64,000 nucleotides of DNA from a virus, in IMG/VR virus record IMGVR_UViG_3300020385_000012, positions 1-64,000 of that record; one strand, 5' to 3'. Numbering within the stretch: the stretch's first letter is position 1; every line of letters starts with the position of its first letter. The position numbers and the translations under genes are program-made. Positions 30,457 through 44,182 of the stretch are shown here, piece by piece. Under the pieces are notes generated by a model that did no database searches, had not been told where the DNA came from, and worked only from the letters and a program-made list of their open reading frames with translations.

Positions 30457-30482
30457 AAGGGGGATTAATTTCCCCCTTTTTT
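30457..30482 (+). terminator. Bidirectional intrinsic terminator at the convergent junction
   Basis: AAGGGGGA (30457-30464) pairs with TCCCCCTT (30471-30478) around loop TTAATT, followed by a T run to 30482 on the plus strand. The A bases at the 5' side give a short T run on the minus strand. It contains the stop codon of the converging lipoprotein gene and ends both the nrdA unit and the late unit. Confidence 0.85.
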
Positions 30483-31130
30483 CATTATTACTTTTGTTGA
30501 ATTAACAATATCTCTACCCGACTTATTGTTATTATAATTATTAATATCTTGCCTAGGTGTTATTTTAGATTCAAATCTATTTGGATTTTCTTTTGGCTCA
30601 ACTCTTGTGTTGTTATTCCAGTTTCTAGAAACATTATTAGGATTCCTGTAAATTCTTTCTTCTCTATTATCTACTTTCTTTCTTAATCTATTAGCTATAA
30701 CATCTACATTTGGTGTTCCTCTTCTTTCCTTCATTATAGCTCTCTGTCTCCATATTTTATATGAATTATATTGCCAAGGGGTATACCATTGATATGCTCC
30801 CCAGTTATTATAAGTTAAAGCCCATTCATACCAAAACTGACTTCTGTTCCAGTAAGCGTCGATAGGACTTAATGGTTTCCAAAACCTATAAACAAATGAT
30901 GAAGTATAAAACGAATAAGGTTGCTTCATCGCAAACTGTGCATAATCCCACCTAAATCTAAAATCAGTTCTCATCTTCCAATTTAATCTTGAAAAAGATA
31001 AGGTATCTATTTTTACAGTATTAGGAACTTCTAATACTACAAATTTAGTAGGCTTATGATTAATAGTGGATAATTGAACAGACCCACATCCTGTTAGTAT
31101 TAATAATAAAATTAAAATGTAATTTTTCAT
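30465..31130 (-). CDS. Predicted lipoprotein, aromatic-rich
   Basis: A 221-residue protein with a lipoprotein signal: MKNYILILLLILTGCGSVQ, lipobox LTGC (Cys15). Residues 45-125 are rich in Trp, Tyr, Phe and Arg (RFRWDYAQFAMKQPYSFY, FWYEWALTYNNWGAYQW), followed by an Arg/Asn-rich tail. No family recognised; the aromatic block is reminiscent of flavobacterial surface lipoproteins. It is the last late gene, overlapped by ATGA with a 29-residue ORF after the M15 endolysin. Position next to the endolysin would suit an outer-membrane spanin partner, but no inner-membrane partner is evident. Confidence 0.75.
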   Translation of the reverse strand: MKNYILILLLILTGCGSVQLSTINHKPTKFVVLEVPNTVKIDTLSFSRLNWKMRTDFRFRWDYAQFAMKQPYSFYTSSFVYRFWKPLSPIDAYWNRSQFWYEWALTYNNWGAYQWYTPWQYNSYKIWRQRAIMKERRGTPNVDVIANRLRKKVDNREERIYRNPNNVSRNWNNNTRVEPKENPNRFESKITPRQDINNYNNNKSGRDIVNSTKVIMKKGGN

Positions 31131-31216
31131 TTTTTCATGTGTTTAGTTAAATTTGGATAAAGCTCTATGACAAAGTCATGTACTTTATTTATAAACTCAA
31201 TTATGATTTTTTTCAT
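31127..31216 (-). CDS. Amphipathic 29-residue peptide between endolysin and lipoprotein
   Basis: ATG 31216 to TGA 31127, joined by ATGA overlaps on both sides (endolysin stop/start and lipoprotein start). The product opens MKKIIIEFINKVHDFVIEL and ends basic, a good amphipathic helix. The exact two-sided coupling argues for translation. A role in membrane disruption or coupling of lysis genes is possible; it has no lipobox or full transmembrane helix. Confidence 0.6.
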   Translation of the reverse strand: MKKIIIEFINKVHDFVIELYPNLTKHMKK

Positions 31217-31671
31217 ATAACCATATATTTAGTTTTGTTGTTCTCGTCTTTGTATGCTTTCAAACATCTTTTTCTATTTGAATCAGCATCTACATAACTT
31301 ACATGCACCCAATCTGGGTTTTGATCGGTGCCAAATTCCCAAATCATTTGATCGTAATCTAAGTTATCTTTTATGTATTTATACATATCTGCGTTTGACA
31401 TATAGCCATATGTGTCGTCTAAATCCATTGCTCTGCCTTGGCAATGCTGTGATTTTGCACTCCCACCAATCGCTTGATTTAATTCTGGGCTGCGATAAAA
31501 TGAGTTAATTTTAATCGGCCCATTAACGTGTTTTCTTAATGGTTCAAATACTTTCTCAGCAATCAATTCCATATTTTGTAATTCATAATCACCGGGTGTA
31601 TTATCTATACCTGTTCTCATTGCCGTTGCACTAAACGTTGCTTCTTTTTTACTAATGTGTTCGCTAATCAT
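31213..31671 (-). CDS. Endolysin, M15 family peptidase
   Basis: A 152-residue zinc peptidase of the Peptidase_M15_3 type, which cleaves peptidoglycan cross-links. Ligands are His76 and Asp83 in SQHCQGRAMDLDD and His123 in DWVHVSY; SFYRSPELNQAIGG precedes them as usual. No signal peptide, so it needs the holin (about 24 kb away) to cross the inner membrane. It sits between the barrel-like protein and the 29-residue peptide. Best single lysis enzyme call in the window. Confidence 0.88.
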   Translation of the reverse strand: MISEHISKKEATFSATAMRTGIDNTPGDYELQNMELIAEKVFEPLRKHVNGPIKINSFYRSPELNQAIGGSAKSQHCQGRAMDLDDTYGYMSNADMYKYIKDNLDYDQMIWEFGTDQNPDWVHVSYVDADSNRKRCLKAYKDENNKTKYMVI

Positions 31672-31674
31672 TTT

Positions 31675-33126
31675 TTATAATTTAAATTTACCGCCTATTG
31701 TTATTGAATATGTTAATGGAAATGAGTCTGTGCTTTTAGCCACATTAAAACCTAAATTCATTCTAAAGGTTTTAGTCATAGAAAAATCAAAGTTAGCACC
31801 ACCCACGAATAAAGCGTGCTCATTAAAAACAAATCCATTATCTAATGTACTGTAACTCACTGGTGTTAATGCGGTAGCTAACATAGGTGATACAGTAAAT
31901 CTTTTAAAGTTATATGGTTTGGTACCAAAAAATACAAATGAAGGCATTATGTTCCAATTTCCTTGGCTATATAATATATTGTTTGATGCAGATACTCCAC
32001 CAACAAATCCTTTCCATTTATTTTCTTTTTGGCCTATATAAACGTTGCTAATACCAAATGACATATTATAAACGCCATACATATACATTAATCCAGCTGA
32101 TAATGTTTGCACATTAGCAATACTCCCTTTGTCATAAAAATGGCCAAATACATATTCTTCACCATTCTCTCTAATTATAACTGGAACTTTTTTATCGTAT
32201 CTATGAAATACATGACCTCTTGAACCACTTAAACTAAATTGTTTTAAGTTGTCCCATATCATCATATTAGCGGAATAATTAAATTCACCGTTCATAGATG
32301 ATTGTGCAAAGCCAATACCTATAACCTGATTTGCAGCACCATCTAATCCTGACATTCGCATTAGATTAGCAGATATAATTATAGGGTTTGTATTTTTCTT
32401 TTTCTTTTTTTTCTTTTCTTCTTCCTCCTCTTCTTCTTCAGACTCTTCCTCGGATTCTTCTTCCTCCTCTTCTTCTTCTTCTTCTTTATCCTCTTCCTCT
32501 TCTTCTTTTTCTTCCTCTTCTTTTTCCTCTTCTTGTTCATCTTCAGAGTCATCACTATCATCATCGGAATCGTCGCTATCATCAGAATCATCAGAATCAT
32601 CTCCATCTCCATCAGAATCATCTCCTCCGTCGTCTCCATCACCTCCATCATCACTATCTCCTCCACCGTCATCACCGTCTGAATCTCCACCACCATCTCC
32701 ATCGCTATCCCCTCCTCCGTCAGAATCACCGCCAGAGTCACCACCGCTATCGCCAGTGTCTCCACCGCTATCTCCTCCAGAATCAGATCCACTTCCTGAA
32801 TTGTCAGAGCCACTTCCGCTTGAATCAGAGCTATTGGTATTTGATGTAGATGTTTGTGTTGTTGTTTGTGTGGTTTGGGCTGTAGAACACGCTGATAACG
32901 CATACCACCAGGCATACGTTTGTTCCATCCAAGTTCTTAAAGCACCACTGTAAAAATCATTTGCAGTAAATGTTTTTGTTCTGTTATAAAAAGATACTGT
33001 TGTGTATCCTTCCATTTGAATTGAAACTTTTTTAATCTCTCCGGTACATCTATCCGCAAAGGCTTGTACTAATGTTTGAGAATATATACTTGAGGAAAAT
33101 AATAATAATATTATTATTTTTTTCAT
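31675..33126 (-). CDS. Exported barrel-like protein with extreme Asp/Ser/Gly and Glu linker
   Basis: A 483-residue protein. The signal peptide MKKIIILLLFSSSIYSQ ends in a flavobacterial Ser-Gln site. Residues 18-90 form a small domain with two Cys (Cys27, Cys80) and many aromatics. Residues 99-195 are almost only Ser, Asp and Gly, 196-237 almost only Glu, 238-244 Lys. From 245 to the end are alternating strands (GIGFAQSSMNGEFNYSANMM, GVYNMSFGISNVYIGQ, FRMNLGFNVAKS) closing in TIGGKFKL, like an outer-membrane beta-barrel with terminal aromatic/hydrophobic strand. It shares the exported block with CsgG-like genes. Function unknown. Confidence 0.72.
   Translation of the reverse strand: MKKIIILLLFSSSIYSQTLVQAFADRCTGEIKKVSIQMEGYTTVSFYNRTKTFTANDFYSGALRTWMEQTYAWWYALSACSTAQTTQTTTQTSTSNTNSSDSSGSGSDNSGSGSDSGGDSGGDTGDSGGDSGGDSDGGGDSDGDGGGDSDGDDGGGDSDDGGDGDDGGDDSDGDGDDSDDSDDSDDSDDDSDDSEDEQEEEKEEEEKEEEEEDKEEEEEEEEEESEEESEEEEEEEEKKKKKKKNTNPIIISANLMRMSGLDGAANQVIGIGFAQSSMNGEFNYSANMMIWDNLKQFSLSGSRGHVFHRYDKKVPVIIRENGEEYVFGHFYDKGSIANVQTLSAGLMYMYGVYNMSFGISNVYIGQKENKWKGFVGGVSASNNILYSQGNWNIMPSFVFFGTKPYNFKRFTVSPMLATALTPVSYSTLDNGFVFNEHALFVGGANFDFSMTKTFRMNLGFNVAKSTDSFPLTYSITIGGKFKL
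32395..32832. repeat. Low-complexity coding repeat (TCD/TCC and TTC triplets)
   Basis: About 440 bases of near-triplet repeats encode the Ser/Asp/Gly, Glu and Lys linkers of the exported barrel-like protein. On the plus strand it reads as runs of TCATCN and TTCTTCC units. Such tracts are prone to in-frame slippage, so linker length may vary between relatives. Confidence 0.85.
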
Positions 33127-33845
33127 TAATGATCAAATATTTTTTTTCTTATCATTCGTTTAACAACCTTAGCAACTGCAGTTTCTAAAGCTTTCTTAGT
33201 CGATGTACCAATTGATGATTGATTAAACTTAACATCTTCTAAATTCTCATTATTTAATAAAGTTAATTCTCTTGTTGTTGTAGCTTTACCTAAGCCAGAT
33301 CCCGTCATATATAAACCAGTTTCAGAATCAATAAGCTTAACTTGTAATCCTAATCTTGTAACTAATTTATTTTTAATACCGTCTTTTAAATTAATAGTTT
33401 CATCTTCTGATATACTAAAGTCATAAACTTCTATATAACAAAAGTATTTAGCTAAAACTATTTTACCAATAGGATTTATAACGTTAGCTGTAAAACCTTT
33501 TTCACTTGCTTTGAATTGTTTAATCATTCTATCTTTTATCTCATCTCTTGTTTCTACAAACTCAAAACGAAACGTTTCATCTAAGAATGCTACAGTTATA
33601 TTAGTTAAACCTAATCCAACTCTATAATCACCTAGTTCAGGATACTGATTTAATATTTCTTCAGTAACACCAATGTTAAGCAATGCTACAGATACAGGGT
33701 CACCGTTATATTCTGGTACACTCCATATAGATTCTCTTGACTCAAAGCTACCGACATAATCTTCGGTTGTTGTTTTTCCAATTACTTGGCTATGAACAGA
33801 AGCCACAGCCGATACAAATATCGCACATAGTATAAATTTTTTCAT
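33126..33845 (-). CDS. Exported CsgG-like protein (curli secretion channel family)
   Basis: A 239-residue protein with signal peptide ending VASVHSQ. The order of elements follows CsgG: a first strand VSVALLNIGVTEE, a helix with VGLGLTNITVAFLDETF, then RFEFVETRDEIKDRMIKQF (matching the WF-x-x-x-ER block of CsgG), IVLAKYFCYIEVYDF, RLGLQVKLIDSETGLYMTG and a closing helix STKKALETAVAKVVKRMI. CsgG is the outer-membrane curli export pore; related folds occur in FlgT and LpoB-like proteins. The membrane hairpins of CsgG look shortened here and there is no lipobox, so pore formation is not assured. Confidence 0.6.
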   Translation of the reverse strand: MKKFILCAIFVSAVASVHSQVIGKTTTEDYVGSFESRESIWSVPEYNGDPVSVALLNIGVTEEILNQYPELGDYRVGLGLTNITVAFLDETFRFEFVETRDEIKDRMIKQFKASEKGFTANVINPIGKIVLAKYFCYIEVYDFSISEDETINLKDGIKNKLVTRLGLQVKLIDSETGLYMTGSGLGKATTTRELTLLNNENLEDVKFNQSSIGTSTKKALETAVAKVVKRMIRKKIFDH

Positions 33846-33846
33846 G

Positions 33847-34077
33847 TTACCAATCTATTTCTCTTTCCTCTTTCTTTGGTTTTTGTATAACTGTTTTAGT
33901 TATAACCAAAGTATCTTTTACAACACTCGGAGGTATTGTTATTGTTTGTTCCATTGTTGGTGGAGGGGAATCATCTTCAGGACTGAATATAGCTTCCATG
34001 TTAGCTATAAATATTCCACCAGCTGCAGTTATAATTAAACCTACTGTAGCTATTATTTGATTTTTTAATTCTTTCAT
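33847..34077 (-). CDS. Single-pass membrane protein with Pro-rich tail (76 aa)
   Basis: A 76-residue protein: NQIIATVGLIITAAGGIF at about 6-23 is a transmembrane helix, followed by IANMEAIFSPEDDSPPPT, a Pro/Thr segment, and a charged end KPKKEEREIDW. The topology (short cytoplasmic start, periplasmic tail) suits an inner-membrane spanin-like or anchoring subunit. It lies between the CsgG-like gene and a lipoprotein gene, and membrane protein plus lipoprotein neighbours recall i-spanin/o-spanin pairs. No family recognised. Confidence 0.6.
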   Translation of the reverse strand: MKELKNQIIATVGLIITAAGGIFIANMEAIFSPEDDSPPPTMEQTITIPPSVVKDTLVITKTVIQKPKKEEREIDW

Positions 34078-34078
34078 A

Positions 34079-34438
34079 TTATTTCATTGAAAAGGTTTGT
34101 CGACCTATAAATTGATTATTTTTAGTATACAGCTCCACGGTATATGAACTAACTGGCAATGAATTAACATATATATTTAATATGTTATCGCCTTCTCTGC
34201 CTTTTATTATTTCTTGATTAATTATAGTATTTGTAAAATCTAATATTTTAATCCTATAGTCACCATCAGAGGGTAGCTTAGTGTTTATTCTCACTTTGTC
34301 TTGCACTATATAGCTTTCAAGTTTTAAACCAACAGCTTGAGGCATGAATAAAGATTCAGGCACTTCTTGTATCGGTCTTTCATTGTATACCTCTGTGGTG
34401 CAACTTATAAATAAAAATAGTATAAAAAGTTTTTTCAT
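34079..34438 (-). CDS. Predicted lipoprotein with beta-sandwich like a T9SS sorting domain
   Basis: A 119-residue protein with lipobox FISC (Cys13) after MKKLFILFLFISC. The mature part (YIVQDKVRINTKLPSDGDYR, then IKILDFTNTIINQEIIKGRE and NSLPVSSYTVELYTKNNQFI) has the strand order and LP-x-x-x-Y turn of Bacteroidota type A sorting domains of the type IX secretion system. A sorting domain on a lipoprotein would be odd, so this may be just the same fold. Start and upstream stop share one base (TAATG). Confidence 0.6.
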   Translation of the reverse strand: MKKLFILFLFISCTTEVYNERPIQEVPESLFMPQAVGLKLESYIVQDKVRINTKLPSDGDYRIKILDFTNTIINQEIIKGREGDNILNIYVNSLPVSSYTVELYTKNNQFIGRQTFSMK

Positions 34439-36063
34439 TATTGTATTTTTAAAATTACTTTAGTTCCATCGCTTGTAACAGCATCCGTTGTTTTAAAATA
34501 AATTAATCCTGATGCGTTTGTCACGGTTTGTTTTGTATTAAATATAATTTTATAAGGTTTACCAACCTTAATGCTTTCTTGGTTTTCTACACTAATGCTA
34601 CCAAAATATAATTTATTATCGCGTTCTGTTGCAAAATTAGTTAATAGATTACCTGTATCGAATTGAACCTCTTCAAATTCTAATATAGTATCGTCAAACT
34701 GAATTACAAATTGCATGCCCGCTAAATAATTTTTTTCGAGTTCAACTAATAATTCCACTTTATCGTTAACTAAACTTGTTGAAATATCTAAATCTAAATT
34801 TTCAATTTTACCCTGTACAATAGGCATTCTTACAACGCCCTCGTTATTGTTTCTAGCTATAGGTTCAAATGAATGTGAGAAGTCTACGTCTCCAATAAGT
34901 CCGTGACCAAAATCAAAAACCTTATTAGAATCAGTAGGTGTAAAATGTTTTTTTTGTCCAAAGTAATAATCATCTGTAGCATATCCGTATTGTGTTTTTT
35001 CTCCCCAAATATCTTTAGCGCCGTTAGTAGAGCTGGTAAAATATTCACTAACATTTTTATCCATTATGTGACTAAGTATAACATAAGAATCATCAAAGTC
35101 TACATTACCGCTATTATTAACTTCACCTAATAAAGATTGTAGCGCATGGGTAAACGTACTTGCCGAACCACTTGGGCTAGAACCAGCGCCGATAGCCTCT
35201 TTAAATACTAAAAACACATCAGTAACAGTAACCACATCATCTAACCAATCAGAAGCCAGTTCATTATCAACAGTAATGTTAATATTGTATTTAACATCGT
35301 TTTCTAAGCCAGTTACAATAGCTTGAGAATTAGCATCAAAGTTGCCACTCACTACACTATTATTATTACTTAATATATCGTATTTATAATGCGTCGGTTT
35401 GTCGTTCTCTGTTTTAAGATTTATAGTAACACTTCCGGCGTCGCCACCTTCAACATCTGATAATGTTATTTTTTGTTGCATTGCATCAACGTCGTATTTT
35501 GTTGATGTTGAATTATCTTCAGCCCTCATCCAGTTAAGATGAGTTACATTATTATAATTGCTGTAGTTAGTATTAATCTTATCTTTAATTTTAAAATCAA
35601 CTTCAATTAAAGTATTATTATATGTTATGCCTACACCATCTTGAATTGTTATCCTTTCTACTGACCAATCGTTATTTGTAGGATACGAATTAGTATCTCC
35701 TTGTACTTGCGTTCTATTAAACCAACCGTGTAAATACTGATCTGAAAGATTATCTTCATCATAAGTACTTAAAACTTTATACTTATAACCGTCCCAATGT
35801 GTTAACGACGTTTGCGCATCGGTATTAGCTGAGTTATCGGTTACTTTAAATCTATGAGTAATTTTTTGTAACAATTTGTTATTGTACTCATAGTCAAATA
35901 TATACAAGTTAGGGTCAACATTATTTGTGACTTGTATTGTATTAAACTTTATTGTTATAGTATCACCAACTGCAAAATTTTCGGCGTTTGTATAACTGTG
36001 ATCAAGTTTTAAATCTTGCGATAAACAGAATAATGGTAATAATAAAAACAATAGTTTTCTCAT
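34438..36063 (-). CDS. Exported multidomain protein with dockerin-like and cohesin-like parts
   Basis: A 541-residue protein with signal peptide MRKLLFLLLPLFCLSQ. An N-terminal beta domain follows. Residues 205-270 (GSVTINLKTENDKPTHYKYD, YNINITVDN) look fibronectin/BACON-like. Residues 306-336 (ALQSLLGEVNNSGNVDFDDS) form an EF-hand-like dockerin block. The last 115 residues (VELLVELEKNYLAGMQFVIQ, DDTILEFEEVQF, GSISVENQESIKVGKPYKII) fit a cohesin-like beta sandwich. Cohesin and dockerin domains bind each other in cell-surface assemblies. The protein could self-assemble or bind a host scaffold. Composition differs little from neighbours. Confidence 0.65.
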   Translation of the reverse strand: MRKLLFLLLPLFCLSQDLKLDHSYTNAENFAVGDTITIKFNTIQVTNNVDPNLYIFDYEYNNKLLQKITHRFKVTDNSANTDAQTSLTHWDGYKYKVLSTYDEDNLSDQYLHGWFNRTQVQGDTNSYPTNNDWSVERITIQDGVGITYNNTLIEVDFKIKDKINTNYSNYNNVTHLNWMRAEDNSTSTKYDVDAMQQKITLSDVEGGDAGSVTINLKTENDKPTHYKYDILSNNNSVVSGNFDANSQAIVTGLENDVKYNINITVDNELASDWLDDVVTVTDVFLVFKEAIGAGSSPSGSASTFTHALQSLLGEVNNSGNVDFDDSYVILSHIMDKNVSEYFTSSTNGAKDIWGEKTQYGYATDDYYFGQKKHFTPTDSNKVFDFGHGLIGDVDFSHSFEPIARNNNEGVVRMPIVQGKIENLDLDISTSLVNDKVELLVELEKNYLAGMQFVIQFDDTILEFEEVQFDTGNLLTNFATERDNKLYFGSISVENQESIKVGKPYKIIFNTKQTVTNASGLIYFKTTDAVTSDGTKVILKIQ

Positions 36064-36524
36064 AGTTTTAATTTCTTAATAATGTTTTCAGATAATTTTT
36101 TTAATGCAACGCTTACACTATTTTGTGTAAACTTCCCTTGTTCATTTAATAAAATTAAAGATGTAGTTATATCTTTTGACGTGCCTTTCACTTTTACTTT
36201 TTTCTTTTTGTATTTAGCAATAGCAATTATTTCGGTTTGACTCGATGATTTGCTATACAATGCAATATTTGATTGAGTACGTTTCACATCAAAATAAATT
36301 AGCTCAACATCTAAAACATTTTTACTTCTATCATTTAAGCTATAATCTTGATCCTGAACCACCTCCTCTAATATGTTTTTCAACCCAAACCCAACGTTTC
36401 TATTGCCAACCAAAGGACCAGTTTGAATTGAATTTTTTATATCGTTTATTTTAATATCTTGTGCAGATATTACAATGCAAAATAATAAACTACTTACTAT
36501 CTTTATTCCTTTTATGTACTTCAT
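36060..36524 (-). CDS. Small exported CsgG/YajG-like protein
   Basis: A 154-residue protein with signal peptide (GIKIVSSLLFCIVISAQ). The mature part has VGFGLKNILEEVVQDQDYSL, VLDVELIYFDVKRTQSNIAL, IIAIAKYKKKKVKVKGTSKD and SVALKKLSENIIKKL. The first block resembles VGLGLTNI of the CsgG-like protein, and the ends (helix with Ala-Leu-Lys and Ile-Ile-Lys) match too, so the two may be paralogues; it also resembles YajG-type lipoproteins but lacks a lipobox. Overlaps the next gene by ATGA. Confidence 0.5.
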   Translation of the reverse strand: MKYIKGIKIVSSLLFCIVISAQDIKINDIKNSIQTGPLVGNRNVGFGLKNILEEVVQDQDYSLNDRSKNVLDVELIYFDVKRTQSNIALYSKSSSQTEIIAIAKYKKKKVKVKGTSKDITTSLILLNEQGKFTQNSVSVALKKLSENIIKKLKL

Positions 36525-37168: not shown

Positions 37169-40100
37169 TTAATAAATTTTTATTTTTTTAGTTGACTTTC
37201 GTTTTTTCTTTTTAGGTTGTTTCCATTCTAATTCCCACTTAGCCCAACCTAAAGCATTAGCTACTCTCATCCAATCTTCATTTTCAGAGTCTAAAGCATC
37301 TTTTATATTTGTTATTTTTTTAATTCCTCTGTCAAGTGGTATATTCGTGCTCGCACTAACTAAATTACCTAAAGCTAAAGCAGCAGGATTATCTATAGCA
37401 AAACCTTTTTCTTTTATTTCTTTTTTATTCCATTGAAAAGTTCTATTTGCTGACACAACTTTTTTAATTTTAGATGAAATTGGAGGAGATAAATTCAATA
37501 ATTCAATAGCAGTATCTTGAGGGCTACCTTTATCCGCCATTTTTATTATAACATTTTTAAGTGTAGATATTGCTGCTCCATGAAAACCAATACCCCTTAA
37601 TAATGAATCCGCCATACCGTTTGCAATTCTAGCACTTTTATTTTTTAAAAGCTCATCATCAGGATCATTACCAAACATCATGGCAAATAAAGCTTGCTGT
37701 AATGCGTTAAACATAATATTTTGTACAACACCATAATACATTATCTTAGACATATTGGTTTTATCATCCCCACGTCTATTTATAAGATCACTAGCAGCTT
37801 TTTGCATTATTCTAGCATATTGTGATGGTGTGTTTGCAAAAGCTAATATAACGCGCCCTAATTCGCTGGCTTGTTGTTGGCTAATTCTATCAGGTCTGCT
37901 TGATTGCTGAGACTCTTCAGATATTTCTCTAAAATCCAAAAAAGCTTTTTGCTCAGCTTCAGTTTTTGACATACCATCTTTGATATATGAATTAATTCTA
38001 TTTCTATAAAAAGCAGCCCCCCCAGAGGATATTGCAAAACTATCCGCTATTTGTGTTGGTAAAAATCCTAATTTTAATATTTTAGCAACAAAAGCTTTTG
38101 CTTTATTATTAGATTCAGCTGCAATTTCAGCAATATCGGCTTCATTAACATTAATTTTTAACCCGTTACGTCTAGTTACTAAGTAATCAGAATTCATTAA
38201 AAACATTACGTCTTTCCAATATTGAGGTTGATTAGCAAATGCCGCAGCTGCTTTCAACGGATTATTATCATTCCAATTTAAATAATTCACTGCAGATATT
38301 GTTTGAAGAACAGCTGATCTTGAGTTAAAAAACATTATTGTTCCTACTGAGCCGTTTATCCAATCAACAAGTCTATTTGTTAAAGCGTCACCACCTTTGG
38401 ATTTTCTGTTAGTTCCAGTTTTCATACGTTCGAGCATGTTTTCTAAAGCTAACCTATATTTTTTACCAAAAGCAGCCTCTAATTTATTTAAATTTGTTTC
38501 AGAAAATATTATATCAACATTTTGTTGCCATTTTTCTAAAGCTTGCTTTCTAGAGTCCGTGTTTAACCCTTGTAATAAATCTGTATTTATATTGCCAGCT
38601 AACCAATTTTTGTCCGGTTTTATGTATCCATCTTCATTTATTGTCATTAAATCGTTAGCAAAATTTCTTAAAGAATTATCTTTAGCAACAAATTTATTTA
38701 ATTCTTTTTTATCAATTTGAGATAATCCATCAATTTCAAAACCGCTTTGTGTCCATATATAAACTCTAATTGCTTGATCAACAGTAAAAGGTTCTCCAGG
38801 AACTTTTTCATTTAAATCTTTAGGCGATAATTTAGATAATTTTGTAATTTCATTATATTTATCAGCCATTTTTACCCTAGTGTTAGATATATCAACCATT
38901 GCTTGGGCATAAAGATCTGTTATATTTTTTTCAATCCATTTTATTTGTCTATCTCCTTCTTTTCCTTTTCCAATAAATTTATACATTAACCCCATAAAAT
39001 CCTGTGCTGATGGAGGTATACCTATTATATCAAATTTGCCTTTGTCCTTACCAGCAACAGTAGCTTTAGCTCTAGCATATCTTTTTCTTGATTCAATTTT
39101 TGTAGAATTTTCTAAAATATCATTAAACTCAACATTTAAATCTATACTTTCACTAGGCTTTATATTTGTAAACACCTCCGCAGTTTGCGGTCCAGCTTTT
39201 ATTGTTTTAGGTTTTACAACAGCATCATTGTTGCCAAAAAATAAATAAGCTCTTATATTAAATTTTGTTTTTGTATTATTTTCTCGGGTTTGATCAGTTA
39301 AAGAAATTTTTATAACAGTGTCTAAACCAAAATTGTAAATATCTTTTACTTTTAATTTTAGAGGATTTGTTCCTAATGACACCCACCCTTTGTCACCAAA
39401 GTACATGTATTGGTCCCCTTTACTTTTATATAATTTAACTATTGGAGCCACCGTTGGTAATGTTTTTGTAGCTGTTCTACTAATAAGTTTACTTAACCAT
39501 TCGCTCATTTTTAATGGCTCTTTATTTATATCTTTTTCTGTTGGATGAAATTTATCTGTAATTACAAATCCATCTGAATCTAACTCATATGGCAGGTTTG
39601 CTTCGTCTAATTTTTGAATTATTCTATTGGTTATTTTATTAGCCTCCGCAAACATTTCATTTGCTATTTCTGGACCAAATTCATTTAGTATATTTTTTTT
39701 ACCATTTTTAGACCCTATTTTGTCACTAATAGAATTTTTAATTTCAAAACCGTATTTTTGTCCATTGAGTTCAATGTCTATATCAACGCCTGTGTCTCCT
39801 GTTTTTAGCGCTTTTAAGTCAGACATATTAAGAATTTTAATTCCCGGTATCAAAGCTTCTAACTCTTTCGCTACAAAATACTCTAATGCTTGCCCTTTTC
39901 TATCCTTTAAATTTAAACCATATTGTACTTGCCCAGCAATTAAAGCGGTCCAAAATACATTAAAATTTTCTTCTAAACTAATACCGTCTAAAGAATTAAC
40001 AAGATCTATAATTAAACTAGCAGATTCAGAAAATTTAAAATCTGTAGCTCTATCAATTTCTTTTGCAACTTGTGATAAGTAATTGTCATCAAACTGCTCC

Positions 40101-43100
40101 CCTTGCATTTCAACAATGCTTTGTATTTTATTTTGTATTTCTGGATCTCTTATAACGTCTAATGTAGCATCAAAAGCAATTTCTTCAGCTAATGCTTCCG
40201 CTAATGCTGTTTTTCTTGTTCCTTGCGTAGACCTACCAACATCTTCACCTAAAAAATAATCTACAAATTCTTTATTTTTTATTTTCTTTTTTCTAAATAT
40301 AGGATTTCCTTGAGCAGTTTTTTCTCTTTTTTGTTTTCCATTCTCATCTAAAACCGGCTCTACAAAAGGTTTAAATCTTTTATTTAATGTAGACTGAGGT
40401 ATTATACTATATAATAAATCAAAATTAACTTGCAAAAATTGCTTATAATCAACACCTCTTCCTAAAAATTTAGCTATTGTAGGTTTTAATTCTGTTCTAA
40501 ATGCTTTTTGTAATTTTTTTCTAAAATCTTTTGATTTAACAGATGGTAATTTTGTACCAAAAGTTTTAATAACAGAATTTTTAACTTTATTTACAATGCT
40601 TTCTGTTAATCCTAAAGATGTCCTAAGACTTTCTCTTTGATCAAGTATTTCAGGATTGGTAACATCATCAGTAACGCTTTTTGCTTCTGAAACGTCTTCT
40701 GTAAATTTAGTTTCAAACATCTGAGATGCTATTGTTTTACTTTTTTGTTTTAATCTAAAAAGTATATGTGAAGCTAAAACAGGGTTTCTTTTGGCATCAT
40801 ATTGTCTTAAAGAGCCAAGTATTCCATACACTGGGTCTGAAACAAGAGCCATTTCAAAATCTTCTTTCATTTCTGAAAACTTAGGAACATCTCTATATTT
40901 ATTTACAATTTTTTTAATTTCTTGTTTTATATATTTATTATCAGCAATCGACATTATTGCATTTTCACCTTTATTTTCAAACATTGTCTGTATTGCTTGA
41001 GAATCAGAGGCTGCAACTTTTAATTCTGGTTCAGCTTGAACTTTTTTATCTGCTTCAATAATTAAATCGCTTAAACCAGCTTTTAATTTTACTAAATCGG
41101 TTTTATCTAAAGTTCCATCTTTTATTCTTTGGCCAAAGTTTATAAGTAAATTTACAGCATCGGTTTGACCTTTAAAATTAATTTTAGTACCCGCGACTAA
41201 ATTCATGCTTTCCGCAATTGAACCTAAAAATGTTTTATTTTTAATATTGTCGGGTTTAATTTTGCCCTCCGCTACTCTTTCTAAAAAGTTAACAACTATT
41301 TCTTCAGCATTAGTAATATCTGCCGACTGAGCACCTTTTACTCGCTTCCCTTTAAATTCAACACCAAACATTTGGTCATAAACTTTTTTATTGTTTACTT
41401 TTAACCATTTTTCTATTTGTTCAGCTATTGGTTTATATTCATCGCTTTTTATTCCTAAGGATTCAAACAATGCGTTATGTGAAATTTCATGATACCCTGT
41501 ACCCGCTCTTTCATTTTTAACAGCATTTTCTTTAGATATTAATTCATAAGACTTGCCTTTTAATTTAAATTGAATCCCGTTTGTTATACCTTTTCTAAAT
41601 TTGTTTATAGTGTTTTGGTCAATATTTGCTCCAATTTTTGTTACGTAATCTAATAGTTGATCATTAGTTTGAAATGACTTAAATTCGTTATTAAGCCCTT
41701 TTATTTTTTTACTAGATGCCACCGATTCGTCAAACTTATCTTCAAAATACAATTCAGAAGCCTTTTGAAAAACTTTTGTTTCTGATGTATTAGTATTGTA
41801 AAATTCAAAAGAATCTTTAGCTTTTTGTATATAACTATTGTATTTTTTATTATCCGAAGCTTTTAGTAAACTAAATTCATTGCCAAAAGATTCTTCGCTT
41901 CTAAATAAATCTCTAACTTCTTGTAAATTATTAAAATCGCTTTGCAATATATTTAACGCTAATTTTTTTTGTTTGTTAGTTAGCTTGTTATCGTTTAGTA
42001 TTTCCGAAGCTTTAGATCTTAATGTTTCTTGTTTGGATGTTATATCCATGTAGCCCTGAAAAGCTTCTTTAGATATTTTTTCGTTTATTTTGTTACTAAT
42101 ATTTGATAATATACTTTCGTTTGCTTCTCTTAATGTTTTAACCTGCTGTTCAAAGCTTTTAAAAGTAGATGAATTAGTGTTTAAATTCGCCATACTTTGT
42201 TCTATCTCACTAATTTTATCATTATTAGCTCGAAACTCTTTATATTTATCTACGTCGCCAAATTTTTGCATAAACATTCCTGCGGTTGCAGGAGCAGAAT
42301 TCATTAAAACTGCAAACATAGCGCCAGAAAAAGCAGAGTGATCTACGTTTTCAAAAGTAGGCCTTCCTGTTAAAATGTTTTGTGTCATAGTAGTTAAAGA
42401 CTCACCACCAGATTCAATAAAAACTGGTGCGGCAATTTGTTGACCGAAATAGCCTTTCATACTTCTTTCAACAACAGATTTACCTGATTTTGACAGAGCG
42501 TTAAAAGTGTTTCTTAAAAGCAAATAACTAGGAGCAACACCAAACAAACCTTCTGCCATACCATAACCAGATGAAATAAGCATTTTTTCCCCAACGCTAC
42601 GACTAGACATAGGATCTAAAGCGTCTTGTTTTGTCATAGTGGCGTATTGTTCTCCCGCGCTTGGTAAACTTGCTGCTACTCCTGCGGCTATTGTTTGTCC
42701 CGCAGCTCCAGCGCCTGCAAAACTAGCAAGACCACCAGATGCCGCCATAGATGCAAATATAGGTAATTGAGTTGATATTTCTTGCCCTAAAAATCTACCG
42801 AAGTTTCCATCTTTGAAAGCATCTTTAAATTTTATATTAGGAGAATATTTATTCATTGTTCCGTCTACATAATTACCCCAAGCAAGATCAACTTCATCTA
42901 AAGCCTTTAAGGTTTTTTCTTTCTGCTCTTCATCGTCTTCAAAAAGTATAGTAGAAATTCTTGTAGCGTTATTTAAACCATATACAACAGCACTACCTAG
43001 CCCAGTACCAATTTTAGCTAAATGTTTATTAAAATGATCATAATCTTTACTTAATAAATCAGCACTAATAGCCATTTCTTGCATATCGGCACCTTGTGTT

Positions 43101-44182
43101 TTTAAATAAGGAAGCTTGCTTAATATAGCCTCTTCTTTTAATTTATATTCATCAAAGTTTGATTTATATTGATTAAATTCATTTTTAGAAATTAACCTGC
43201 CGTCTTCTAATTGTAATAATTCACTTTCGGGAACTCCTAATGTTTTAAAATTATAATTTGGGTCTTTTACCTTGTCAGTAAAGCTTTGAATTTCATCGCC
43301 TAATTGTTTATTTTGATTATACAAATCTTCAACTTTTTGTGAAAATTTCATATAATTTTCAATATCTTTTTTTACATTAGTTTTTTGAGACTCAAATTTT
43401 TCGTAATCTGGCTGTAAAACTTTACTAGATGGAATATTAATATTGCCAGAAACACTAGTAAATCCCTCAACCTTTTTGTATTTTTTATATTCAGGATCTT
43501 TATCTAAAATTTGATCAACGTTATATTTAAATTTATCAAGCTTATATTTGCTTTTTAATTGATTTAACAATTCTAAATCTAATTCCTCTCCCTCTAAACC
43601 TTGCTCGTTTTTTATTTTTAGTCTTCTTTGCTTTAATTCTTTTTCAGAAATATCTAACGATCTTTCATATTCAAAATATTTAGATTGTGTTGTAGACGAG
43701 GGGCCAGCTCTTAATGTTCCTCCGCCAACTATAACGCCGGGATTTTGTATAATTTCAGTTTTTTCGTTAAAAATATCAAAATTAGGGTTATCATCTGTAC
43801 CAAATAATCTTTCCATCTCTGCATTTTGCTCGCCTGTAAGTTTTGCTTTTTCAAGCATAACAGAGGTGTCTTTACTTATAGATGGGACAACAGATATATC
43901 TTCCGTAGTTGTTGGAGTTGGTTCTGATTTTTTTATATTTTCAATAGTTAAGCCTTGAAGCTCATTACCTATTTGGGTTGGCATCGCTGGTGATGCCGAA
44001 GAAATATTTCCCGAATTTAAATCCGTATTGGATGCTTTGTTTTCTTCCACAGCCGCACCCGGTGTTGTGGACGATTGCTTTCCCTCAGAACTATCGTATT
44101 TTTCGTATCCTGGAAATAAGCCTAGCTGAGATTCTTCAACTTCGTATATCTCACCCTCCCATTTAATTTTAAATTTATCCAT
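37169..44182 (-). CDS. Giant internal virion/ejection protein (T7 gp16 position), polyvalent
   Basis: A 2,337-residue protein, the largest in the window. The N-terminal 450 residues are helical and charged. A Gly/Ala-rich hydrophobic stretch lies at about 470-515 (ASGGLASFAGAGAAGQTIAA). A HEISH zinc-peptidase-like motif sits at 898-902 (TGYHEISHNALF). A PD-(D/E)XK-like core has Asp1467 (GVDIDIELNGQKYG), Glu1480 and Lys1482 (FEIKNS). The C-terminal third (IADSFAISSGGAAFYRN, DFREISEESQQSSRPDRISQ) matches large polyvalent proteins of marine phages. As the third gene after the tail tube it likely forms the ejected core channel carrying accessory enzymes into the cell. Confidence 0.78.
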   Translation of the reverse strand: MDKFKIKWEGEIYEVEESQLGLFPGYEKYDSSEGKQSSTTPGAAVEENKASNTDLNSGNISSASPAMPTQIGNELQGLTIENIKKSEPTPTTTEDISVVPSISKDTSVMLEKAKLTGEQNAEMERLFGTDDNPNFDIFNEKTEIIQNPGVIVGGGTLRAGPSSTTQSKYFEYERSLDISEKELKQRRLKIKNEQGLEGEELDLELLNQLKSKYKLDKFKYNVDQILDKDPEYKKYKKVEGFTSVSGNINIPSSKVLQPDYEKFESQKTNVKKDIENYMKFSQKVEDLYNQNKQLGDEIQSFTDKVKDPNYNFKTLGVPESELLQLEDGRLISKNEFNQYKSNFDEYKLKEEAILSKLPYLKTQGADMQEMAISADLLSKDYDHFNKHLAKIGTGLGSAVVYGLNNATRISTILFEDDEEQKEKTLKALDEVDLAWGNYVDGTMNKYSPNIKFKDAFKDGNFGRFLGQEISTQLPIFASMAASGGLASFAGAGAAGQTIAAGVAASLPSAGEQYATMTKQDALDPMSSRSVGEKMLISSGYGMAEGLFGVAPSYLLLRNTFNALSKSGKSVVERSMKGYFGQQIAAPVFIESGGESLTTMTQNILTGRPTFENVDHSAFSGAMFAVLMNSAPATAGMFMQKFGDVDKYKEFRANNDKISEIEQSMANLNTNSSTFKSFEQQVKTLREANESILSNISNKINEKISKEAFQGYMDITSKQETLRSKASEILNDNKLTNKQKKLALNILQSDFNNLQEVRDLFRSEESFGNEFSLLKASDNKKYNSYIQKAKDSFEFYNTNTSETKVFQKASELYFEDKFDESVASSKKIKGLNNEFKSFQTNDQLLDYVTKIGANIDQNTINKFRKGITNGIQFKLKGKSYELISKENAVKNERAGTGYHEISHNALFESLGIKSDEYKPIAEQIEKWLKVNNKKVYDQMFGVEFKGKRVKGAQSADITNAEEIVVNFLERVAEGKIKPDNIKNKTFLGSIAESMNLVAGTKINFKGQTDAVNLLINFGQRIKDGTLDKTDLVKLKAGLSDLIIEADKKVQAEPELKVAASDSQAIQTMFENKGENAIMSIADNKYIKQEIKKIVNKYRDVPKFSEMKEDFEMALVSDPVYGILGSLRQYDAKRNPVLASHILFRLKQKSKTIASQMFETKFTEDVSEAKSVTDDVTNPEILDQRESLRTSLGLTESIVNKVKNSVIKTFGTKLPSVKSKDFRKKLQKAFRTELKPTIAKFLGRGVDYKQFLQVNFDLLYSIIPQSTLNKRFKPFVEPVLDENGKQKREKTAQGNPIFRKKKIKNKEFVDYFLGEDVGRSTQGTRKTALAEALAEEIAFDATLDVIRDPEIQNKIQSIVEMQGEQFDDNYLSQVAKEIDRATDFKFSESASLIIDLVNSLDGISLEENFNVFWTALIAGQVQYGLNLKDRKGQALEYFVAKELEALIPGIKILNMSDLKALKTGDTGVDIDIELNGQKYGFEIKNSISDKIGSKNGKKNILNEFGPEIANEMFAEANKITNRIIQKLDEANLPYELDSDGFVITDKFHPTEKDINKEPLKMSEWLSKLISRTATKTLPTVAPIVKLYKSKGDQYMYFGDKGWVSLGTNPLKLKVKDIYNFGLDTVIKISLTDQTRENNTKTKFNIRAYLFFGNNDAVVKPKTIKAGPQTAEVFTNIKPSESIDLNVEFNDILENSTKIESRKRYARAKATVAGKDKGKFDIIGIPPSAQDFMGLMYKFIGKGKEGDRQIKWIEKNITDLYAQAMVDISNTRVKMADKYNEITKLSKLSPKDLNEKVPGEPFTVDQAIRVYIWTQSGFEIDGLSQIDKKELNKFVAKDNSLRNFANDLMTINEDGYIKPDKNWLAGNINTDLLQGLNTDSRKQALEKWQQNVDIIFSETNLNKLEAAFGKKYRLALENMLERMKTGTNRKSKGGDALTNRLVDWINGSVGTIMFFNSRSAVLQTISAVNYLNWNDNNPLKAAAAFANQPQYWKDVMFLMNSDYLVTRRNGLKINVNEADIAEIAAESNNKAKAFVAKILKLGFLPTQIADSFAISSGGAAFYRNRINSYIKDGMSKTEAEQKAFLDFREISEESQQSSRPDRISQQQASELGRVILAFANTPSQYARIMQKAASDLINRRGDDKTNMSKIMYYGVVQNIMFNALQQALFAMMFGNDPDDELLKNKSARIANGMADSLLRGIGFHGAAISTLKNVIIKMADKGSPQDTAIELLNLSPPISSKIKKVVSANRTFQWNKKEIKEKGFAIDNPAALALGNLVSASTNIPLDRGIKKITNIKDALDSENEDWMRVANALGWAKWELEWKQPKKKKRKSTKKIKIY

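Follow-up and report, generated by a model that had tools for sequence, protein, structure and literature searches.

Staphylococcal adhesins of the Sdr/ClfA type have a long, length-variable serine/aspartate spacer between a folded domain and the anchor. In the amyloid secretion protein FapF, a disordered linker connects an N-domain in the periplasm to a barrel of 12 strands. The periplasmic location of the N-terminus was demonstrated, and modelling indicated that the protein could extend across the periplasm (PMC5557850). Phage-borne CsgG and CsgF genes were described in pelagimyophages and in phage Melnitz, and uptake, sibling capture or timing of lysis were suggested as their functions (PMC7029224, PMC9004378). 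Phage HTVC008M carries CsgF, CsgG and curlin-like repeat proteins.

The DNA analysed here (the window) comprises 64,000 nucleotides of a 65,350-base virus record in IMG/VR. It encodes an exported protein with a long low-complexity tract, termed the tether protein, within a cassette of further exported and membrane proteins. The protein is proposed to belong to a phage-encoded, envelope-spanning secretion or display assembly with the barrel in the host outer membrane and the N-domain and tether in the periplasm, a reading that we regard as an even call. The following features were distinguished:

30465..31130, minus strand: lipoprotein-like gene with lipobox LTGC, conserved in some relatives only
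31213..31671, minus strand: peptidase M15 endolysin, 3 nt downstream of the tether gene (Peptidase_M15_3, E 1.7e-15)
31675..33126, minus strand: low-complexity-tether protein gene, 483-aa ORF, exported outer-membrane protein in three parts (from relatives and AF2 model me71f0626774b)
31678..32394, minus strand: C-terminal outer-membrane beta-barrel, residues 245-483, with terminal beta-signal TIGGKFKL
32395..32832, minus strand: low-complexity tract, residues 99-244, running from S/G through D and E to K, predicted to be disordered
32887..33075, minus strand: small N-terminal domain, residues ~18-80, four strands and two helices in the AF2 model
33076..33126, minus strand: signal peptide, residues 1-17 (MKKIIILLLFSSSIYSQ), ending YSQ, as read from the sequence
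33126..33845, minus strand: CsgG-fold exported protein, directly upstream and overlapping the start of the tether gene by 1 nt (AF2 model m0b1c07cbda92)
33847..34077, minus strand: small protein with an N-terminal transmembrane segment and a C-terminal Trp (from comparison with relatives)
34079..34438, minus strand: small lipoprotein-like protein with a weak DUF3244 / Por_Secre_tail match
34438..36063, minus strand: exported protein with a C-terminal cohesin-like domain (Cohesin, E 7.8e-6)
36060..36524, minus strand: short CsgG-like paralogue with a weak Lipoprotein_16 match, clustering with the CsgG-like family

The tract or its end was present in 12 further IMG/VR contigs. Since it occurs with identical order in relatives assembled from different samples, an assembly error was excluded, and the tether protein gene is a real gene of a flavobacterial phage. 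Two additional open frames, at 32388-32849 (plus strand, 153 aa) and 32379-32915 (minus strand, other frame, 178 aa), were regarded as by-products of the triplet repeat and carry no evidence of being genes.

The structure of the tether protein was modelled with AF2 from 40 sequences. The pLDDT was ~85-91 in the barrel and ~60-87 in the N-domain, and fell below 50 over almost all of residues 99-244. The cleavage site of the signal peptide was assigned by family analogy, Q17 being invariant in alignment A10. Cys27 and Cys80 of the N-domain were invariant across the 40 relatives. DSSP analysis of the model assigned 14 long barrel strands, which we read as a 12-stranded barrel with two of the 14 probably forming the extended outer part of one hairpin. 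The C-terminal octapeptide matched the beta-signal pattern in 39 of the 40 relatives, so that signal peptide, predicted transmembrane barrel and C-terminal beta-signal were all found, as in an outer-membrane barrel protein. A low-confidence helix rich in Glu and Lys at residues 230-241 contains no hydrophobic residues, both in the model and in the sequence. An earlier note on this DNA had described a small Cys-containing exported domain, a barrel-like C-terminus and a long, charged, polymer-like linker; the signal peptide with the invariant cysteines, the well-modelled barrel with its database matches and beta-signal, and the predicted disorder of the tract agree with this description.

Database comparisons were performed with sequence profiles and with the model. 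No Pfam or PHROG family was assigned to the tether protein beyond spurious low-complexity matches; those of the tract to CIS_TMP, Merozoite_SPAM and other weakly scoring Pfam and PHROG families were rejected as artefacts. Sequence-profile searches against the PDB gave nothing useful. By Foldseek, the barrel matched KdgM (E 1.9e-7) and FapF (E 2.1e-7) in the PDB, followed by NanC and autotransporter barrels. The match to FapF was no better than that to KdgM or NanC and could therefore reflect generic similarity among outer-membrane proteins. Against viral models, matches were confined to generic outer-membrane proteins.

The 12-stranded autotransporter barrels among these matches (EspP, NalP, BrkA and Hbp) would be compatible with another topology, in which the chain threads its own barrel and the tether forms an extracellular stalk bearing the Cys domain, for adhesion or to mask receptors against superinfection. 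The order of passenger (N-terminal) and barrel (C-terminal) would be correct, the S/D/G tract resembles a stalk such as the SD-repeat stalks of the Sdr/ClfA adhesins, and the neighbouring cohesin and T9SS-tail proteins suggest surface assembly. However, an autotransporter beta-domain was matched by Pfam in none of 40 members, a domain with two invariant, perhaps disulfide-bonded cysteines would be hard to thread, and the structurally similar FapF has a periplasmic N-terminus (PMC5557850). Display by this route was considered rather unlikely.

The envelope-spanning assembly preferred here would include the neighbouring genes, which are arranged in the order short CsgG-like paralogue, cohesin protein, small Trp-ending inner-membrane protein, CsgG-fold protein and tether protein. 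The best Foldseek hits of the CsgG-fold neighbour were all E. coli CsgG (4uv2; E 2.1e-7, probability 1.00, TM-score ~0.45). Since the Pfam CsgG profile reached 1 of 42 family members only (E 0.001), this neighbour is termed CsgG-like. All 43 non-redundant CsgG-like loci contained the tether protein (42 by clustering, L089 by direct reading), usually starting 700-1,078 nt past the CsgG start; L047 is ordered otherwise. Of the 80 loci from the reverse search with the N-domain, 77 contained CsgG and three were cut at the locus edge. These co-occurrence counts refer to loci found via one cassette gene, and both directions were tested. Two CsgG-like genes per locus were present in 40 of the 43 loci, and the small transmembrane protein in 39 of 43 after pooling of related clusters. 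Trp is the last residue of all 39 proteins in its two main clusters, and by its sequence this tail looks like a periplasmic docking tail.

Clustering placed the cohesin-type protein in all 43 loci, and Pfam detected it in each of 16 records. A dockerin-like stretch (GEVNNSGNVDFDDSYVILSHIMD) was noticed by eye in the cohesin protein at 34438-36063 (minus strand). Pfam dockerin was matched in 8 of 16 related records, mostly weakly, and not in the record of the window. Of 16 records, 12 contained a T9SS sorting tail (in 6 the match passed the cut-off), which makes surface export by the T9SS of the host plausible. CsgF (PF10614) and curlin (PF07012) were detected in none of 16 records, although the E. 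coli positive control was recovered, and a full curli operon was thereby ruled out. No secreted amyloid-like substrate was found in these 16 records either. In the part of the literature on phages with cohesin, dockerin or CsgG that was covered, such a cassette is not described.

The endolysin gene at 31213..31671 was confirmed by PHROG (E 1.1e-29), and many relatives have other types of endolysin close to the cassette (clusters 8, 11 and 20). The cassette might hence be a spanin-like trans-envelope device, in which the inner-membrane protein, the CsgG-type pore and the tethered barrel act at lysis or in disruption of the outer membrane. This is consistent with the endolysin gene that begins 3 nt downstream, with the endolysin-type genes of the relatives, and with the proposal that phage curli pores, as CsgGF of phage Melnitz, time lysis (PMC9004378). 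It is at odds with the cassette of phage immuto, which adjoins ribonucleotide reductase and shows no gene annotated for lysis within the 12 kb inspected, and with the cohesin and lectin-like surface proteins, which have no obvious lysis function; spanins, moreover, are much smaller. A role in lysis was judged improbable. Under the secretion or display reading, the tract is the part that would cross the periplasm.

The 146 residues of the tract comprise D41, E35, G31, S26 and K10 as well as one N, one T and one Q. Apart from the latter three residues, the earlier description as a run of only Ser, Asp and Gly, then Glu, then Lys was correct. The mean relative positions were 0.30 for neutral residues, 0.42 for D, 0.81 for E and 0.90 for K, and none of 20,000 shuffles reached both gaps of the order S/G, D, E, K. 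An imperfect period-3 array (70% matches) was located by TRF at 32396-32544. Codon usage within the tract was mixed (GAA25/GAG10, GAT31/GAC10) with at most 5 identical codons in a row, hence the DNA is not a pure triplet microsatellite.

Linkers were compared among relatives of increasing distance. The same protein was found in 12-13 IMG/VR loci with a barrel identity of 82-95%. In the window and 11 complete relatives the linker measured 127-178 aa, with 11 distinct lengths, and its flanks (79 residues before and 239 after, 318 in total) were free of indels in the 12 close sequences. Of 446 pairwise gaps within the tract, 440 had a length divisible by three, in part because the reading frame is kept. 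The idea that a slippable triplet repeat makes the linker length tunable thus stood as far as whole-codon variation between close relatives with indel-free flanks is concerned, and failed with respect to a pure repeat. Replication slippage is a possible cause of the length changes.

All of ~90 further relatives possess a low-complexity linker. Relatives without a linker, which would have spoken against the earlier interpretation, were not encountered among them, and the shortest complete ones (381-394 aa) still hold roughly 90 linker residues. On alignment A9, which is approximate in the linker region, linker lengths were 114-325 aa. Linkers are acidic in the clade of the window and neutral (S/T/G/N/Q) in a second clade, which includes the isolate Flavobacterium phage immuto. 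Both types correspond to clades on the CsgG-like tree, requiring two changes compared with a shuffled mean of 9; the acidic linker of L080 lies outside the acidic clade, on a very long CsgG-like branch. Acidic linkers invariably begin with the neutral part and have E ahead of K, and a strict order of D before E was found in 21 of 28. The last ten residues before the barrel were net positive in 34 of 40 sequences, the remaining linker being usually net negative. Since charge is not conserved across the family, a spacer property rather than charge seems to be kept, and a disordered hydrophilic spacer is the preferred interpretation of the tract. Regular EEKK repeats, as in single alpha-helices, occur just before the barrel in the linkers of L189, L191 and L192 (match from 4001). 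Adaptation of the acidic linker to salinity was rejected, as no significant correlation with the acidity of proteins of the same locus was obtained (rho 0.29, p 0.15). That the linker is unconstrained filler, resized by replication slippage and devoid of function beyond solubility, would fit its fast length change (11 distinct lengths in 12 close sequences) and its different composition between clades, but is very unlikely in view of the lack of a linker-free relative among ~90, the recurrence of the neutral, acidic, basic order in divergent proteins and the mixed codons, which are unlike a fresh slippage product.

Calcium binding, as had also been suggested for the tether, was examined by motif searches. 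No RTX, TSP3 or EF-hand match was obtained with Pfam in the tether protein, and DxDxDG and GGxGxD were no commoner in the tract of the window than in local shuffles. Since these motifs do not exceed what composition predicts, a specific role of calcium is unsupported for the protein of the window. In the relative L080 (5717-7609), the 325-aa acidic linker contains 15 DxDxDG motifs compared with 3.9 expected (0 of 500 shuffles); judged from this count, a calcium-binding tether is possible there.

Portal and terminase placed the phage near flavobacterial podoviruses. Portal identity was 53% to Caudoviricetes sp. MW202828, 47% to Maribacter phage Panino and 43% to Elemovirus. The window further encodes a phage GroEL (8571-10133, minus strand; PHROG E 6e-138), and GroEL and GroES are annotated in the related MW202828. 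For a 2,337-aa protein at 37169-44182 (minus strand), neither PHROG nor Pfam gave a match; with 41-52% identity in most relatives, its C-terminal part is far less conserved than the adjoining cassette. Scanning with the CsgG-like neighbour yielded at least 80 loci (best 80 of 215 relatives) on contigs of 9.7-343 kb; a scan with the N-domain gave 80 loci on contigs partly shared with the former.

Among 50,697 phage records, the only isolated relatives were the immuto phages of Flavobacterium sp. LMO8, which were reached via the CsgG-like neighbour (48.5% identity) and a weak N-domain match. As at least ~65 kb separate the immuto cassette from the genes annotated as baseplate and tail, assignment as a tail protein was rejected; signal peptide and beta-signal also argue against a tail or virion protein. 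In the GTDB genome set, the CsgG-like gene occurred in two MAG contigs only, L110 and L111, which may be phage contigs binned with Bacteroidota. A cellular origin was discarded on the basis of these two contigs, at least one of which is phage-like by context.

Sequence, architecture, family spread, cassette and fold predictions are results of the analysis; topology, partners and a secretion or display role of the tether protein we infer from analogy as follows. The barrel half, with 12-14 strands, would be anchored in the host outer membrane, and a disordered hydrophilic tether (~90-325 residues across the family) would link it to the small folded N-domain. By analogy to FapF, tether and N-domain would most likely be periplasmic, and the N-domain would extend past the peptidoglycan as far as the CsgG-type ring and the small protein of the inner membrane. 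The resulting envelope-spanning assembly may secrete or display the cohesin proteins of the cassette late in infection, a cohesin protein being the most plausible cargo or displayed product. The tract would act as an entropic, solvated spacer, for which length and hydrophilicity matter and the exact letters do not; such a role would account for a linker that changes in length and letters yet stays hydrophilic and low in complexity. The contour length of a disordered chain is ~0.36 nm per residue, and the 146 residues would extend to a contour of ~50 nm, more than enough to cross the periplasm. The basic residues at the end of the tract could attach it to the anionic inner leaflet beside the barrel.

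Together, the results suggest that the phage makes a module for the envelope or for secretion that has not been described before. Somewhat more tentatively, with confidence just short of even, we propose that many aquatic Bacteroidota phages (on contigs from ~40 kb to jumbo size) may carry an unrecognised hybrid machine of a CsgG-type ring, a FapF-like barrel, a Trp-tailed inner-membrane protein and cohesin-type proteins, a phage-specified structure on the infected cell in which the tether would be the periplasm-spanning arm. To our knowledge, phage-borne curli pores have been noted only in phages of proteobacteria and are still unexplained. The present cassette is a second, different one containing CsgG. 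It occurs on at least 80 viral contigs and in one phage isolate whose Flavobacterium host is in culture, so that the reason for CsgG-type genes in phages can be tested in the laboratory. Within the family, nature has moreover varied the length (~90-325 residues) and the charge of the tether on a single protein design, which is useful for asking what is required of disordered linkers in the bacterial envelope.

With the Sdr/ClfA adhesins, the tether protein shares a long, length-variable low-complexity S/D spacer. These adhesins have a Gram-positive LPXTG cell-wall anchor, whereas a barrel is present here, the tract continues to E and K, and LPXTG is absent from the tether protein sequence. The cassette resembles curli (type VIII) secretion in the CsgG fold of the neighbour and in its occurrence in aquatic phages. 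It differs from the curli-type phage operons in that CsgF and curlin repeats are missing (0 of 16 records), and the operon of pelagimyophages and Melnitz lacks the cohesin, the Trp-tail protein and the tethered barrel; it was therefore placed outside that operon type.

The overall plan of exported N-domain, disordered linker and C-terminal barrel is shared with FapF of Pseudomonas functional-amyloid secretion (PDB 5o65), as is the location next to other secretion genes. The FapF linker, however, is ~42 aa long, its N-domain is a coiled coil in contrast to the four strands and two helices modelled here, and it has a helical plug with an FF turn before the barrel, whereas a hydrophobic plug helix is not evident in the tether protein. 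An amyloid substrate was not recognised; the fap operon includes the amyloid substrates FapB/FapC, and the genes around the tether gene bear other assignments.

The closest counterpart is gp014-gp019 of Flavobacterium phage vB_FspM_immuto (NC_055915), a 160-kb myovirus, compared with the 65-kb podovirus-like genome here. Its cassette genes are nearly all annotated as hypothetical. In our assignment, gp015 is the cohesin protein, gp016 the transmembrane protein, gp017 the CsgG-like protein (48.5% identity) and gp018 the three-part barrel protein. The linker of gp018 is rich in S/T/G/N/Q instead of acidic residues. With its signal peptide, two-Cys domain containing FTxNDFxxG, long linker and barrel ending GGKLTF, gp018 otherwise matches the tether protein, and the isolated phage carries the same cassette.
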